The position numbers were made by a program, and so were the translations under genes. A DNA stretch of 64,000 nucleotides. Origin: Chitinophaga pinensis. Its GTDB lineage: Bacteria; Pseudomonadota; Gammaproteobacteria; Burkholderiales; Burkholderiaceae_C. A model generated the notes under the pieces. That model saw only the letters and a program-made list of their open reading frames with translations. It ran no database searches and was not told the DNA's origin. Where the stretch lies: positions 1-64,000 of the forward strand of contig CALPRQ020000010.1 in the NCBI GenBank assembly GCA_943326015.2, given 5' to 3'. Numbering within the stretch: position 1 is the first letter of the stretch; every line of letters begins with the position of its first letter. Of the stretch, positions 3,363 to 28,123 are shown piece after piece.

Positions 3363-3652
3363 TATCAATAGCTTGTGTAAGCTAATGATTTTTATGGGTG
3401 ATTTTGACTTCTTAGTTACTCGGCACCATCAAGAGCACCATCAGATGACTTGCTTAAAAATCAAGCACCAAGCAGTCTCTACGCCAAGATCATACAGCAG
3501 CCGCGCGTCTGATCAGACGGTGGTGAGTCGGCGCCGCTTGCTCAGGATCAACCATGAAGGCGCGCCGCCGCTTCGCATACTCAGATCAGCTCGGCTTCAG
3601 CCTCCCGCCGCTTGACCAGCCCGGGCAACACCTCGCCTTTGGCGCGCAACCC

Positions 3653-4213
3653 CTACGCCAGCGCTCCGAGCGCTGCACTGTAGAGTGCCACCCGATCCGC
3701 CTGCCCATTCACGCCTCCGTTGATCTTGCGCGTGATGCGCTCGAAGTCGCCCACATCGGCCAGTGCCGACAGGTCGCGGCTACTCCAGTACCAGGAAGCT
3801 GACAGAGCGGCCCACTCGGGCTGCTCAAGCGCCTCAGGCTGTTGCTCGAAGTCAGGGCACCTGCTACTCACCGGCCGCAGCGCAGCAGTCACGACGCGGT
3901 AGTTGAACCGGCCCGTGATCTGCACCAGGCCGCGACCCATAAACCGCTTGCCGTCGCCCGGCATCTTGTTGCCCAGGTCGGCTCGACCCTCGTAGCGCGC
4001 CTGGGCTGGCGTCGGGCCCCAGATCTCGCGCGTGTAGCGCAGGCGGCCTGACTCGTGGCCGATTTGTGCTAGGAAGGCTGCCAGGCGCCTGGGACTGGTG
4101 ATGTCGTAGAGCGTGCAGGCACGCACGATGTGCGGCAGCCAGAGGGCGGCGCGCTCCGGCATGCAGCCCGTGGCGGCCTGCAGCTGGCTGGTGGTCAGCA
4201 TCATCGTGCTCAT
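3653..4213 (-). CDS. Glycoside hydrolase family 19-like endolysin
   Basis: LAAFLAQIGHESGRLRYTREIWGPTPAQARYEGR...GDGKRFMGRGLVQITGRFNY. Confidence 0.85.
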   Translation of the reverse strand: MSTMMLTTSQLQAATGCMPERAALWLPHIVRACTLYDITSPRRLAAFLAQIGHESGRLRYTREIWGPTPAQARYEGRADLGNKMPGDGKRFMGRGLVQITGRFNYRVVTAALRPVSSRCPDFEQQPEALEQPEWAALSASWYWSSRDLSALADVGDFERITRKINGGVNGQADRVALYSAALGALA

Positions 4214-4497
4214 TTGGACTCCTCTTGCAGCTGAAACTTTGCTGGCACGCCGTCACGCCAGCGGTGCGCCGTGACCATTTGCATCGTCACGACGCCGGCC
4301 AGCAGCGACAGCTCGAACACGGTGGGATACCAGGCGGACTGCAGCGGCTGCGCGATGCCAGCGCAGGCCGCGAAGCCGATCAGGAAGAAAGCGAATCGGA
4401 TCGATATCAGTGTGTCCTGGTTGACCCGGACAAGGCGGCAGAATGCGCCGTAGAGCATGGCGACGCACAGTGCCTCGTGAATGACGATGGGCATCAT
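4210..4497 (-). CDS. Small membrane protein, putative holin/spanin-module protein
   Basis: Hydrophobic segments; adjacent to endolysin, 4-nt overlap. Confidence 0.5.
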   Translation of the reverse strand: MMPIVIHEALCVAMLYGAFCRLVRVNQDTLISIRFAFFLIGFAACAGIAQPLQSAWYPTVFELSLLAGVVTMQMVTAHRWRDGVPAKFQLQEESK

Positions 4498-4892
4498 TTC
4501 GCACCCTCCTGGTCCTGTGTGCGCCTGGAGAGGCGTGCGGCAGCCAGGGCAATGCCGTCCGACAGCGACGCAAACACGGGCCGCCAGCCGTTGCCCAGCA
4601 CACCGATGAGCAGTGCCACCGGGGCAAGCGAGTTGTTGGGAGCCACGCCATAGGCGTTGCTCAGGTACTCGCTGATACCAGAAGTCAGCACGACGGCCAG
4701 CGTGGTGCAGCGCAGGACCAGCCAGGCGCCGGCGCGGTGCGTGAGTGTGCGGTCGGCGCTCAGCGGCCAGAGAGATCCGGCCAAGGAGGAAAACACGATC
4801 ACGGTGTAGGGGCCGGCCAGCGGCCCGAGAAAGGCCACAGCGAGCACGGCGAGACTGACAGAGCCAGATGTTGATGAGATAGGTTCAGGCAT
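4494..4892 (-). CDS. Putative holin-like membrane protein
   Basis: MPEPISSTSGSVSLAVLAVAFLGPLAGPYTVIVFSSLAGSLWPL; lysis cassette position. Confidence 0.5.
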   Translation of the reverse strand: MPEPISSTSGSVSLAVLAVAFLGPLAGPYTVIVFSSLAGSLWPLSADRTLTHRAGAWLVLRCTTLAVVLTSGISEYLSNAYGVAPNNSLAPVALLIGVLGNGWRPVFASLSDGIALAAARLSRRTQDQEGAK

Positions 4893-24078: not shown

Positions 24079-24930
24079 TCAGGCGGCGCTCAGGAAGAAG
24101 TCCGGCTGCTCGGGCGTGTAGGCTGTGTCGTGGCCGTAGGCCGCCCGGCGCTCGGTGAAGCTGATCAGCTCGCCCTCCATCCAGGTCGGGAACTCGGCCA
24201 CCTGGTCATTCAACTGCTTCATGCTGCGTGCGGCTTCGACGGCCATCTGTGCGAGCACCTTCTCGGTAGTTTCTCCATCGCGGAAGATGCGCTTGACGGC
24301 CTGCGCCTCAATGCTTCGGGTGATCTGGCCGACCTGATCGCACAAGGCCAGCACGCGACGCAGTTCGGCAGCCAGCACGGGGATGTGCTCGACGCCGTAG
24401 GCGTTGGGTGCCGGGTTGCCGGTGATCTGACGAAGGTAGTGCCAGATACCCTGGGTAGCCGATTCCTGGCTGTGGAAGTTGCGTCCCGCGAACCAGACGA
24501 TGCGCTTCATGTGCCGCATGTCCGTGGTGTTGAGCTTCTCGCGGGCAGCGGCCGGGGCCGGCTGGGGTTCGGGGCGGGTGGCCGGAATCTCGTAGCGGCC
24601 AGTTTTGCGGATCGCGGGCAGGACTTCCGACGTAACCCACTTCTTGAACTTCTTGGCCTCGGGCTTGCGACTCTTGAGGATGCAGGCGTAGAGGCCGGAC
24701 TCGTTGATGACCGTCATTTCTTGCTCGCCGCCAGGGGTACGCACAATCTGCGTACCCTTTTCGTCGTCGTCAAGGTTGCGCGTCATGTCGGGCGCATTGC
24801 GGTACGCCAGCGCATCGGCAACGTCAGCAGCAACGAACCATGGTTCGCTGTCGATCATCACGACGCGCAGGGCTTGAGTGGAGAAGGAGAAGGTGAGCGC
24901 GCTCGCGCTCGAAGTGCGGATGTCAGCCAT
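24079..24930 (-). CDS. BRO-N domain antirepressor
   Basis: SFSTQALRVVMIDSEPWFVAADVADALAYRN...TVINESGLYACILKSRKPEAKKFKKWVTSEVLPAIRKTGRY. Confidence 0.85.
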   Translation of the reverse strand: MADIRTSSASALTFSFSTQALRVVMIDSEPWFVAADVADALAYRNAPDMTRNLDDDEKGTQIVRTPGGEQEMTVINESGLYACILKSRKPEAKKFKKWVTSEVLPAIRKTGRYEIPATRPEPQPAPAAAREKLNTTDMRHMKRIVWFAGRNFHSQESATQGIWHYLRQITGNPAPNAYGVEHIPVLAAELRRVLALCDQVGQITRSIEAQAVKRIFRDGETTEKVLAQMAVEAARSMKQLNDQVAEFPTWMEGELISFTERRAAYGHDTAYTPEQPDFFLSAA

Positions 24931-25200
24931 GATGGCTCCTTGGGGACGAGTTGTGAACCTGTCACCCCCATCGCCAAACGAGGGTGGCAGACCGTGCGGG
25001 GTTGGCGAACCGGCCCAAGGTGCCGGCACACGCTTGCGCGTGTCCCCACACGGCCCGCCAAAAGGGAATCCGTGCGTGCCTCACGCAGCATGAGGACATG
25101 AAAAAACCGCTGTCACGCGAAAGTGGCGAGCGGTTGCTGCGCCTTGGATTGTCCGGGTCGCCAAACCCGTGTGCCGAAGCACGGGTGCAAGTGTAGCGCA
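24931..25200 (-). ncRNA. C4 antisense RNA-like structured leader upstream of the antirepressor
   Basis: Minus strand ...CGGGTTTGGCGACCCGGACAATCCAAGGCGCAGCAACCGCTCGCCAC...GTGACAGCGGTTTTTT then ...CTGCCACCCTCGTTTGGCGATGGGGGTGACAGG before the ant start; resembles the P1/P7 c4-ant arrangement from memory, includes an intrinsic terminator hairpin. Confidence 0.5.
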
Positions 25201-25293: not shown

Positions 25294-25488
25294 TCAGACG
25301 ACAGGTCTCATGTCTTCCTCGTGGAGCGTGACCATGGCAATGGTCTCTCCGTTGGGATTGCAGAACTCGACCTCGTAAGCGGTATCCGGCCTGGAGAAAA
25401 CATGAACAACCACGCCGATCTGCCCACTGGACAGGCCATGCTCCGGCAAGTCTTTGTTCAGCACAACGGTTTGCAATTCTGAAATCAT
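25294..25488 (-). CDS. DUF4926-like protein, probable immunity/antitoxin partner of the preceding DUF6883-like domain
   Basis: MISELQTVVLNKDLPEHGLSSGQIGVVVHVFSRPDTAYEVEFCNPNGETIAMVTLHEEDMRPV; 4-nt overlap with upstream CDS. Confidence 0.7.
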   Translation of the reverse strand: MISELQTVVLNKDLPEHGLSSGQIGVVVHVFSRPDTAYEVEFCNPNGETIAMVTLHEEDMRPVV

Positions 25489-27749
25489 GTCTTTTCCTTC
25501 AAGACGAACATAGTAACCAATCTTGGTGCAATTGAGCCACTTTCCAGAATCCACCCAGTTCTGACAACGCCAGACCCCAGCGAGCCGACAACAGGGACGT
25601 CAACATTGAACGTCTTCCCGTATTGACTAACCTTACCCTCTGCGGCGGGCAGCGTTGGCAATTTTTCCAGGATCTGGGCCACCAGCGCGTCAGCATTTTC
25701 CGCAGTGAACCCTAGGGCTGCAAAAACCCTTGCCTTGTCTTTTCCAACCGGATGGCTGGAATTCAATGCGTACCCTACGATCTTCCCCATTGGGATAACA
25801 GCCTGATTTGCCCCAGGAATGGCCGTGTCAACAATGGCAGCCCGAACCTCCCCCGCCCTCCTCAACCGATACTCCGCCCGCACGCTGGCCTGAGTCACCC
25901 TCTCCCAGTCCGCCCCGCCCAGCACCAGATCCAGTCGCTGGCGATTGCCCAGGATGCGCGCGGCCTCTGCCAGAGGTAGGCTGCGCAGGAACTCGCGTGC
26001 ACCGTCCTCACGCTGCTCCTTGACCCGTGCGGCGTCGATATCGGGGCGTGTGACCAGCTTGCACCAGCAATTGTGCGTCACAATGTCATTGCCGGTATAA
26101 TGACCACTTTCAGTTTCAAGGTTGTACACATGACCAGAGAACGCGTGTCGGTGGATGCTGATTACCTTGTCAGGGAATACGGGGCCGGTCGCTCCGTCTT
26201 GGATTTGTCGCGCGAGCTGGGCATCTCCAGACCAACTGTCACCCAAAGGCTCGTCAAAGCCGGGGTTGTTTTGCGCACCCAAGGACAACAAAACGTCATC
26301 AGTTTCGAGCGCATAGGCCCAGAGAGGCGCTCCGCCATGACCAAGGCCGCGCATGATGCGGTACGCGGTGTGCCGAAGTCTTTCGCGAACAAGGTTAAGA
26401 ACGCTATCGCCAAGCAGCGCAGCCATGCTGGTATCAGCGAGCACGAGAGGCTGGTTACTGCAGCCTTGCGCGGTAGTGGCATCGATCCGATCCCACAACT
26501 TGCGATTGGCCCCTATAACTGCGACCTTGCTTGCTACCCCGTCGCCGTGGAAATCTTCGGCGGCCACTGGCACTTCTCTGGTCGCCACCTCGCCCGAACG
26601 CAAGAACGCATCCGCTATCTCGGCGATGCAGGTTGGCACGTTTTGATGTTGGTCATGAATGACAACGTCAGCGTCTACCGATTCGGTGACAACACGCGAG
26701 ATCACATCACCTCCTACGTTCAGCAGGCCCGCGCGAACCCATCCACTGCTCGTGAGTATCGGGTGATTGATTGTCGCGGTGAGACACTTGCCGCTGGCCG
26801 TTGTGATGACGACAACATTTCCATCGAACCAGCGTTTACTAACCGCCGTGATCCTGCCACTGGCCGTTATAAGCGCGTCGCCCGTTAGGCAATGCGGATG
26901 GAACGGCGGCTTGGGCGCTTTGGCTTTCGGGTACAGGCCCGGACCCAGACCCCACAGATTGGCCTTGGCATGCAGGTCGCAGATGTCGGGCAGCGGGTGG
27001 CGCGGATTCAGTCGTACCTCCACCACAGCGATGCTGTCGTCCGCCATGATCTGGCCGGCCACCTTGTCCTGGTGGGCGCGTGCCAGCTCGGTCTGAGCGA
27101 TGCGGTCAGCCATGTAGCGGGTCTTTTCACGCTCGGCCACCCAGAGACGCTTCGCCAGCACCTCGCGACCCTTGCCCTGCTCCCAGGCCTTGAGCGCTTC
27201 CAGGTAGCCAGCCTTGAGCGCGGGCGACTTGAGCCGACCGGCCTGGCACTGCATCTGGTCGAGCAACTGAGTCAGATCCTGCCGGGGCCCGGGGTTGGCG
27301 GTCAACTCGCGCAAGGCCTTGGGCAGGTGGGCGCGCGCGGCGCCTTCCAGCGGTCGCTTGACGCCGTCCTGTGGGTTGTAGCCGTCGTAGAGCTGGCGTG
27401 CCAGCTGGCGCGCGTCGTGCAGGCCCTGCGCATGCTGGCGCACGATGGCTGCCACCTCACCCTGGGTCTGCTGCACCATGTCGTACAGCCGGGCACTCAA
27501 GAACACCTCACCCACCGGCATGGCCAGCACGCTTTGCGGTGTGACGCGCTGCTGCATCACCACGCTGAAGGCCTCGCTCAGGGCTGTGATGTACGTGCCG
27601 TTGAAGGTGGTCAGCACCTGCTCCACGGCCTGACGCGGGTCGGCGCCCTCTTCGATCAGGCGCAGCAGCTCATCGTAGGAAGCCTGGGCGGCCTGCTCGA
27701 TCTGAGCCGAAAGATTGCCAGCAGTGGGGCTAATGCTGGGTAGCGTCAT
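25485..27749 (-). CDS. MuF/SPP1 gp7-like minor head protein with in-frame intein and C-terminal DUF6883-like domain
   Basis: PPFHPH|CLTGDALI...DIVTHN|CWCKLVTRP: intein splits the HPxCxC motif; C-terminus VDTAIPGANQAVIPMGKIVGYALNSSHPVGKDKARVFAALGF resembles DUF6883. Confidence 0.85.
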   Translation of the reverse strand: MTLPSISPTAGNLSAQIEQAAQASYDELLRLIEEGADPRQAVEQVLTTFNGTYITALSEAFSVVMQQRVTPQSVLAMPVGEVFLSARLYDMVQQTQGEVAAIVRQHAQGLHDARQLARQLYDGYNPQDGVKRPLEGAARAHLPKALRELTANPGPRQDLTQLLDQMQCQAGRLKSPALKAGYLEALKAWEQGKGREVLAKRLWVAEREKTRYMADRIAQTELARAHQDKVAGQIMADDSIAVVEVRLNPRHPLPDICDLHAKANLWGLGPGLYPKAKAPKPPFHPHCLTGDALITASGRITAVSKRWFDGNVVVITTASGKCLTATINHPILTSSGWVRAGLLNVGGDVISRVVTESVDADVVIHDQHQNVPTCIAEIADAFLRSGEVATREVPVAAEDFHGDGVASKVAVIGANRKLWDRIDATTAQGCSNQPLVLADTSMAALLGDSVLNLVRERLRHTAYRIMRGLGHGGAPLWAYALETDDVLLSLGAQNNPGFDEPLGDSWSGDAQLARQIQDGATGPVFPDKVISIHRHAFSGHVYNLETESGHYTGNDIVTHNCWCKLVTRPDIDAARVKEQREDGAREFLRSLPLAEAARILGNRQRLDLVLGGADWERVTQASVRAEYRLRRAGEVRAAIVDTAIPGANQAVIPMGKIVGYALNSSHPVGKDKARVFAALGFTAENADALVAQILEKLPTLPAAEGKVSQYGKTFNVDVPVVGSLGSGVVRTGWILESGSIAPRLVTMFVLKEKT
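26070..26891 (-). mobile_element. Intein (274 codons) within the MuF gene
   Basis: Block A CLTGDALI, block B GKCLTATINHPILTSSGW, block F/G VYNLETESGHYTGNDIVTHN followed by Cys+1. Confidence 0.88.
26073..26888 (+). CDS. HTH plus Vsr/EDxHD-like homing endonuclease encoded antisense inside the intein (likely start ATG 26130 or 26100)
   Basis: SVLDLSRELGISRPTVTQRLVKAGV (HTH); EHERLVTAALRGSGIDPIPQLAIGPYNCDLACYPVAVEIFGGHWHFSGRHLARTQERIRYLGDAGWHVLMLVM (Vsr-like fold signature); TATAAT at 26096-26101 and AAGG before ATG 26130. Confidence 0.8.
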   Translation: MRHNVIAGIMTTFSFKVVHMTRERVSVDADYLVREYGAGRSVLDLSRELGISRPTVTQRLVKAGVVLRTQGQQNVISFERIGPERRSAMTKAAHDAVRGVPKSFANKVKNAIAKQRSHAGISEHERLVTAALRGSGIDPIPQLAIGPYNCDLACYPVAVEIFGGHWHFSGRHLARTQERIRYLGDAGWHVLMLVMNDNVSVYRFGDNTRDHITSYVQQARANPSTAREYRVIDCRGETLAAGRCDDDNISIEPAFTNRRDPATGRYKRVAR

Positions 27750-28123
27750 GCGAGAAAGAAGTCCTGCTGCGCCCTGCGCAGGGTTTCGGCACGTTGCTGG
27801 CCACGCTCTCTGATGGCTTTGCCGATGAGGTTGTAGGCCGTGCGCGGGCAGCAGTCGTACAGCTCGCACAGCCGGTCACGCACCAGCGGCATGGGGTTGC
27901 CCGCGTCGAGCAGCTCGCGCGCCTGCCGCACCTGGTCAGGCCGCACCAGTACGCGGTAGCTGAAGCGGATGACACGCCCGGCCTGCGCCTTGATGAGCTG
28001 GATGAACCGAGCCTTTGCAACTTCGCAGCATTCCATGCGCTCAACCTCCAACAGGAACCACTCCAAGTCCGTGACCTCGTCGGGGCGCTGAAACTGCAAC
28101 TTCGGGGGCAAGCCGTGCGGCAT
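27746..28123 (-). CDS. Hypothetical phage protein (HTH-like)
   Basis: 125 aa, coupled by 4-nt overlaps to both neighbours. Confidence 0.55.
   Translation of the reverse strand: MPHGLPPKLQFQRPDEVTDLEWFLLEVERMECCEVAKARFIQLIKAQAGRVIRFSYRVLVRPDQVRQARELLDAGNPMPLVRDRLCELYDCCPRTAYNLIGKAIRERGQQRAETLRRAQQDFFLA

Follow-up and report, generated by a model that had tools for sequence, protein, structure and literature searches.

An intein that interrupts the phage capsid gene muF carries, on the strand opposite to its own coding strand, a gene for a putative homing endonuclease. Our best explanation, which we hold at a probability of about 0.86, is a mobile phage intein whose homing endonuclease lies on the antisense strand. 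Sequence comparison and structure prediction support open frames in both directions, a partition of selection between the strands, a nuclease fold with conserved candidate catalytic residues, and expression signals for the antisense gene; splicing, antisense expression, site-specific cleavage and homing are inferred. Against this explanation stand the absence of transcript, protein, splicing or cleavage data, and a last acidic residue of the EDxHD set that is not assigned. The features of the locus, in coordinates of the window (the whole 64,000-nucleotide stretch of DNA analysed here), are as follows:

25485..27749, minus strand: MuF (head morphogenesis) host gene, from the ORF and a PHROG head morphogenesis match
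26892-27749, minus strand: MuF N-extein
26070..26891, minus strand: intein of 274 aa, C1 ... H273-N274 with +1 Cys; PF14890 Intein_splicing, junctions conserved in homologues, empty site in L158
26688..26891, minus strand: N-terminal Hint splicing blocks, intein residues 1-68, TxxH at 40-43; TIGR01445 match, sense-dominated substitution at 1-20 and 41-60
26178..26687, minus strand: intein middle in the sense frame, without a domain and predicted from pLDDT to be largely disordered; substitutions peak at sense position 1
26070..26177, minus strand: C-terminal Hint splicing blocks, intein residues 239-274; weak TIGR01443 match, sense pos1/pos3 ratio 0.60
25488-26069, minus strand: MuF C-extein
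26096..26101, plus strand: TATAAT, likely -10 of the antisense promoter; exact TATAAT enriched in homologues
26118..26121, plus strand: Shine-Dalgarno core AAGG, inside codons of the Hint motif VYNLE
26130..26888, plus strand: putative antisense homing endonuclease gene, 252 aa, ATG start, TAG stop; conserved in >100 loci, AF2 pLDDT 92.5
26157..26291, plus strand: predicted helix-turn-helix (HTH) DNA-binding domain of the antisense protein; PF19575/HTH matches
26427..26675, plus strand: predicted Vsr-like / EDxHD nuclease domain of the antisense protein; PF18741 MTES_1575, PDB 3hrl, 3r3p and 1vsr/1cw0, Foldseek 3r3p

The MuF ORF spans 25485-27869 on the minus strand, with a likely ATG start at 27749 and its stop at 25485-25487. 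The first-pass annotation had placed a 274-codon intein at 26070-26891 inside this ORF and had read the plus strand as open over 26073-26888, codon against codon within the intein DNA. Both are confirmed, with the junctions as claimed (PPFHPH/CLTGDALI ... GNDIVTHN/CWCKL, slashes marking the insertion boundaries); the insertion point is the HPxCxC motif of MuF, split as HPx/CxC. The antisense TAG stop (26886-26888) faces intein codon 2, so the antisense gene lies wholly within the intein. Of its candidate starts, ATG 26130 is the conserved one (252 aa) and stands, while GTG 26073 does not. No Rfam match to an RNA element was found at 25400-27900. The C-terminal part of MuF matches DUF6883 (PF21814, E 3.5e-24) and is followed by a DUF4926 gene (25294-25554, minus strand), the two looking like a phage-encoded toxin/immunity pair; the C-terminal end of the near-identical MuF in the homologous locus L158 differs from that of the window. 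A Bro-N domain gene (24079-25029, minus strand) lies near the muF/terminase region of what appears to be a prophage.

Motifs, profile, predicted fold and empty alleles identify the MuF insert as an intein, its splicing being inferred. The residues C1, T40-x-x-H43 (block B TxxH), H273-N274 and C+1 are intact in the window proteins (P0001/P0003), which upholds at residue level the earlier claim for C1, N274 and C+1; C1, H43 and N274 are invariant in alignment A2. The window protein alone scores below the Pfam cut-off for Intein_splicing, PF14890 is present in 45/45 members, and the intein profile matches PDB inteins at E 7e-11. An in-frame position in a host gene, together with intein-free alleles, meets the criterion for an intein. 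In the AF2 model, pLDDT is about 83-98 per block in the N-terminal Hint blocks and >90 in the C-terminal ones; it is mostly about 31-60 over residues ~101-230, with its minimum at 173-218. Neither the window protein nor alignment A2, whose members have Intein_splicing as their sole common family in the sense frame, revealed a LAGLIDADG or HNH endonuclease domain in that frame. A hidden sense-frame endonuclease is rejected given this lack of a domain and the predicted disorder.

The antisense ORF had been read as an HTH followed by a Vsr/EDxHD-like nuclease, and profiles, AF2 and Foldseek bear this out with a fold that matches I-Bth0305I. Taken as a single sequence, the window's antisense protein (P0002) gives weak matches to HTH and to the MTES_1575 nuclease family, its own Pfam score lying below the gathering cut-off; PF18741 MTES_1575 is found in 45/58 members of the antisense family. 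Antisense profiles match PDB 3hrl and 3r3p (the A3 profile reaching E 9e-4 against 3r3p) and, weakly, Vsr (1vsr/1cw0). The AF2 model built on alignment A1 has a pLDDT of 92.5, and its best PDB match in Foldseek is 3r3p, the I-Bth0305I catalytic domain, with a probability of 1.00 and a modest E of 3.7e-3. Pfam Vsr (PF03852) is absent from the matches of the window protein and from the 25 most frequent families of A1. The conserved residues are, in P0002 numbering, E125 (26445), D151 (26523), E160 (26550) and H167 (26571), with D151 and E160 invariant in A1; E125, D151 and H167 align to the Vsr core, and the second D of the E,D,H,D set is unassigned. The antisense protein as an HTH joined to a Vsr-like (EDxHD-type) nuclease is thus supported by sequence and model, and its cleavage activity is inferred.

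The overlap allows the selected strand to be read from codon positions. In the codon-on-codon register, sense position 1 is antisense position 3, and antisense stops correspond to sense TTA, CTA and TCA. Among Leu/Ser codons, they account for 3 of 2,414 in intein bodies and for 570 of 3,273 in the exteins of the same genes; the three occurrences in inteins belong to L054, a deleted intein, and L066, and such codons reappear at the intein extremes, where the antisense gene starts and stops. For close non-redundant pairs, we divided the number of substitutions at sense position 1 by the number at position 3. Exteins give a ratio of 0.57 (1031/1793); within the intein it is 0.86 for the N-terminal Hint region, 1.27 for the middle and 0.63 for the C-terminal Hint region. 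In 20-codon bins the ratio runs from 0.70 (1-20) through 1.11 (21-40) and 0.66 (41-60) to 1.26-1.84 across 61-240, and is about 0.60 from 241 on. By this pattern, it is chiefly the antisense gene that shapes evolution in the middle, and chiefly the intein at the ends. Selection is partitioned: residues ~61-240 are mainly under antisense constraint, and most of the Hint blocks are governed by splicing. Genuine constraint on both frames at once is found only at the ends, in the promoter, ribosome-binding site and start, and where the C-terminal ~60 antisense codons lie near the N-terminal Hint blocks. The proposal that both strands code over the same DNA therefore holds in that both frames are open and the antisense frame is under selection; it does not hold as dual selection throughout.

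The register also invites the suspicion that only the sense intein is selected and that its reverse translation merely looks conserved, since a conserved sense frame can yield a conserved-looking antisense frame codon on codon, and tblastn with either strand matches the same loci. We give this practically no credence. It is ruled out by the codon-position bias (across residues 61-240, the antisense wobble position takes the most substitutions), by the folding contrast between a poorly folding sense middle and an antisense protein at pLDDT 92.5, and by the enrichment of Shine-Dalgarno, ATG and -10 over their nulls; moreover, a free-standing homologue occurs without a sense intein, and antisense similarity is far above a sense-fixed null, albeit a rough one that ignores shared ancestry. 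The similarity test against the synonymous-codon null agrees with the substitution ratios, and we treat it as supporting only, because it ignores shared ancestry and had no extein control.

Conversely, the sense middle (residues ~70-238) could itself be a functional domain, so that independent functions would run full-length on both strands. The similarity of residues 101-160 (0.86-0.88 against an antisense-fixed null of 0.41-0.44) and the conserved sense motif AAEDFHGDG point that way, but the motif mirrors antisense PVAVEIFGG, the similarity null ignores shared ancestry, the pos1/pos3 ratio is 1.26-1.84, and the region has no domain and a pLDDT mostly of 31-60. We consider a second full-length function very improbable, and keep to an intein whose middle is conserved mainly as an antisense gene.

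The expression signals of that gene lie inside codons for the splicing motifs. TATAAT (26096-26101), AAGG (26118-26121) and ATG 26130, all singled out by the first-pass annotation, are present, and each signal is well above a synonymous-codon null among homologues, expression itself being inferred. An exact TATAAT occurs upstream of the start in 45/109 homologues (4.7 expected). The Shine-Dalgarno core, which is GGAGGT in many homologues and sits within the codons for VYNLE/VYDLQ, is seen in 91/113 (28.7 expected). The conserved start column holds ATG, GTG or TTG in 99/113 homologues and stands opposite His in 98; ATG itself is seen 83 times, against 42 expected. No good -35 candidate was found in the window, where a generic scan detects no full sigma-70 promoter.

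The antisense-gene intein is not a single case: it forms a widespread phage family of >100 non-redundant loci. The antisense protein matches 127 phage records by tblastn, at about 30% identity and E down to 4e-29, including phages of Salmonella, Gordonia, Pseudomonas, Klebsiella, Vibrio and others, and sense and antisense queries match the same loci. Scans of IMG/VR gave 53 loci with the antisense query and, with the sense query, 80 loci fetched out of at least 96. An antisense homologue is present in 80/80 loci fetched by the sense protein alone, so the pattern was not made by searching with the antisense query; antisense stops in two of these loci (L083 and L139) were traced to wrong profile boundaries. 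Removal of loci with >85% nucleotide identity left 115, of which 109 have a usable start near the conserved site, and the codon-on-codon register is the same in every locus where both frames can be aligned. An antisense ORF lost from homologous MuF inteins would have counted against the first-pass reading; the ORF is open and homologous in >100 diverse loci. In the host's bacterial family, no full-length match was found beyond the window's own genome among 401 genomes. One family member lies not in MuF but in a UDG-DNA polymerase A fusion protein (L052:188-3643).

Another locus, L031, has a second intein (3476-4642, 389 aa) in the same MuF ORF, with an antisense zinc-finger + DUF559/Vsr gene at 3599-4435, and because of this second pairing we suggest that inteins may have acquired antisense endonucleases on more than one occasion. 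Relatives of that gene in L182-L184 appear free-standing. In Acinetobacter phage P1068 (L063:2405-3298), a free-standing homologue of the antisense nuclease lies directly downstream of, and opposite to, an intein-free muF.

Sequence comparison indicates precise empty alleles and lateral spread of the MuF intein. L158 is 90.8% identical to the window over 2,567 bases up to the junction and then resumes, with the ~820-base intein absent. The MuF N-extein has matches in 291 records of Jersey-like phages and the intein in 70; muF measures 1044 nt in the intein-free MA12 and buks but 1860 nt in dunkel. L054 and L153 resemble inteins from which much of the endonuclease gene has gone, with the splicing ends kept. 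In distant phages, antisense proteins are about 43-60% identical, against about 15-27% for MuF N-exteins. The Salmonella phages sam and dunkel share an identical intein (816/816 bases) between a 5' extein of 73.8% and a 3' extein of 96.8% identity, which we read from sequence as a recent transfer; given the 3' value, a longer recombination tract that stops at the intein on one side could explain it as well.

That last possibility lends some weight to a nuclease that is expressed and does not home, serving instead in exclusion of rival phages or regulation of muF, with the intein moved by general phage recombination; a phage-phage cutter would show similar conservation. We regard this as unlikely: the gene is restricted to an intein with a conserved insertion site, the insertions are exact, divergence between 5' exteins reaches almost to the junction, and the best match to the predicted fold is a homing endonuclease. 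A homing cut would also exclude intein-free rivals, and the two roles therefore overlap.

The proposal of an opposite-strand splicing and cutting unit of ~820 bp is accordingly supported as an interpretation, with splicing and cleavage inferred. On the homing-intein reading, the sense strand would be read with the MuF capsid gene and the Hint domain would splice itself out, the middle of the sense product probably being a disordered, tolerated loop that owes its existence to the need for a gene on the opposite strand. The antisense gene, whose own -10, Shine-Dalgarno and start all lie within the C-terminal splicing motif, would yield the HTH and Vsr-like nuclease, which would cut intein-free muF alleles at HPx/CxC; recombinational repair would then copy the intein in.

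EDxHD homing endonuclease genes are known as free-standing or group I intron genes. In the fractured genes of Dassa et al. 2009 (cited in PMC10448857), the two halves of a split intein are reportedly separated by a free-standing ORF for an endonuclease of the same broad family; they differ from the MuF case in that the intein is split and the endonuclease sits in a separate intervening gene, not overlapping in antisense. EDxHD enzymes such as I-Bth0305I (Taylor et al. 2011 as cited in PMC3943268) share with the antisense protein a Vsr-like core with DNA-binding modules. Like the antisense gene they are phage-borne, with 3r3p as the best fold match, and they differ in that the gene described here runs antisense to an intein and inside it. 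Canonical inteins with in-frame LAGLIDADG or HNH domains (e.g., PMC8966425) likewise have a Hint domain interrupted by a segment that encodes an endonuclease, sit at a conserved site of the host gene, and occur with empty alleles and HEG-deleted forms; in MuF, however, the endonuclease is on the opposite strand, has its own start signals and stays outside the spliced protein. The ShiLan element, an out-of-frame HNH endonuclease in phage methylases (PMC11855218), also hides its enzyme in an overlapping frame of an insertion whose host-frame reading is disordered, but it is no intein, uses another frame of the same strand, encodes an HNH enzyme and has no detectable ribosome-binding site. The antisense homing endonuclease genes of Didymium nuclear group I introns (PMC9548176) similarly run antisense to the host gene within a splicing element, but there the element is an RNA intron in rDNA, not protein-coding on both strands, and the enzyme is of the His-Cys box type.

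No published intein with an antisense gene was found in the literature. The preprint bioRxiv 2025.01.02.630785 on non-canonical actinobacteriophage inteins, cited by PMC11855218 for overlapping frames, could pre-empt the claim; Gordonia MuF inteins of this architecture could be in its dataset. We lean towards an undescribed, widespread class of inteins, in which splicing and homing are on opposite strands and the endonuclease start signals lie in splicing-motif codons.

Conserved opposite-strand overlap of two unrelated protein genes has rarely been documented so clearly, and with >100 natural variants, selection at the codon level can be followed in each frame. In PHROGs, the antisense family is matched through HTH or generic nuclease families, with no dedicated family, and in a few phage records the ORF, whole or in part, is annotated as hypothetical. 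Standard annotation mostly overlooks the gene, and many phage 'hypothetical' or 'head' proteins may therefore hide it. For further study, these loci provide compact two-strand elements as well as new EDxHD-type enzymes. An endonuclease encoded in antisense would escape both the late timing and the splicing fate of the host protein, a different solution to expressing a selfish element.
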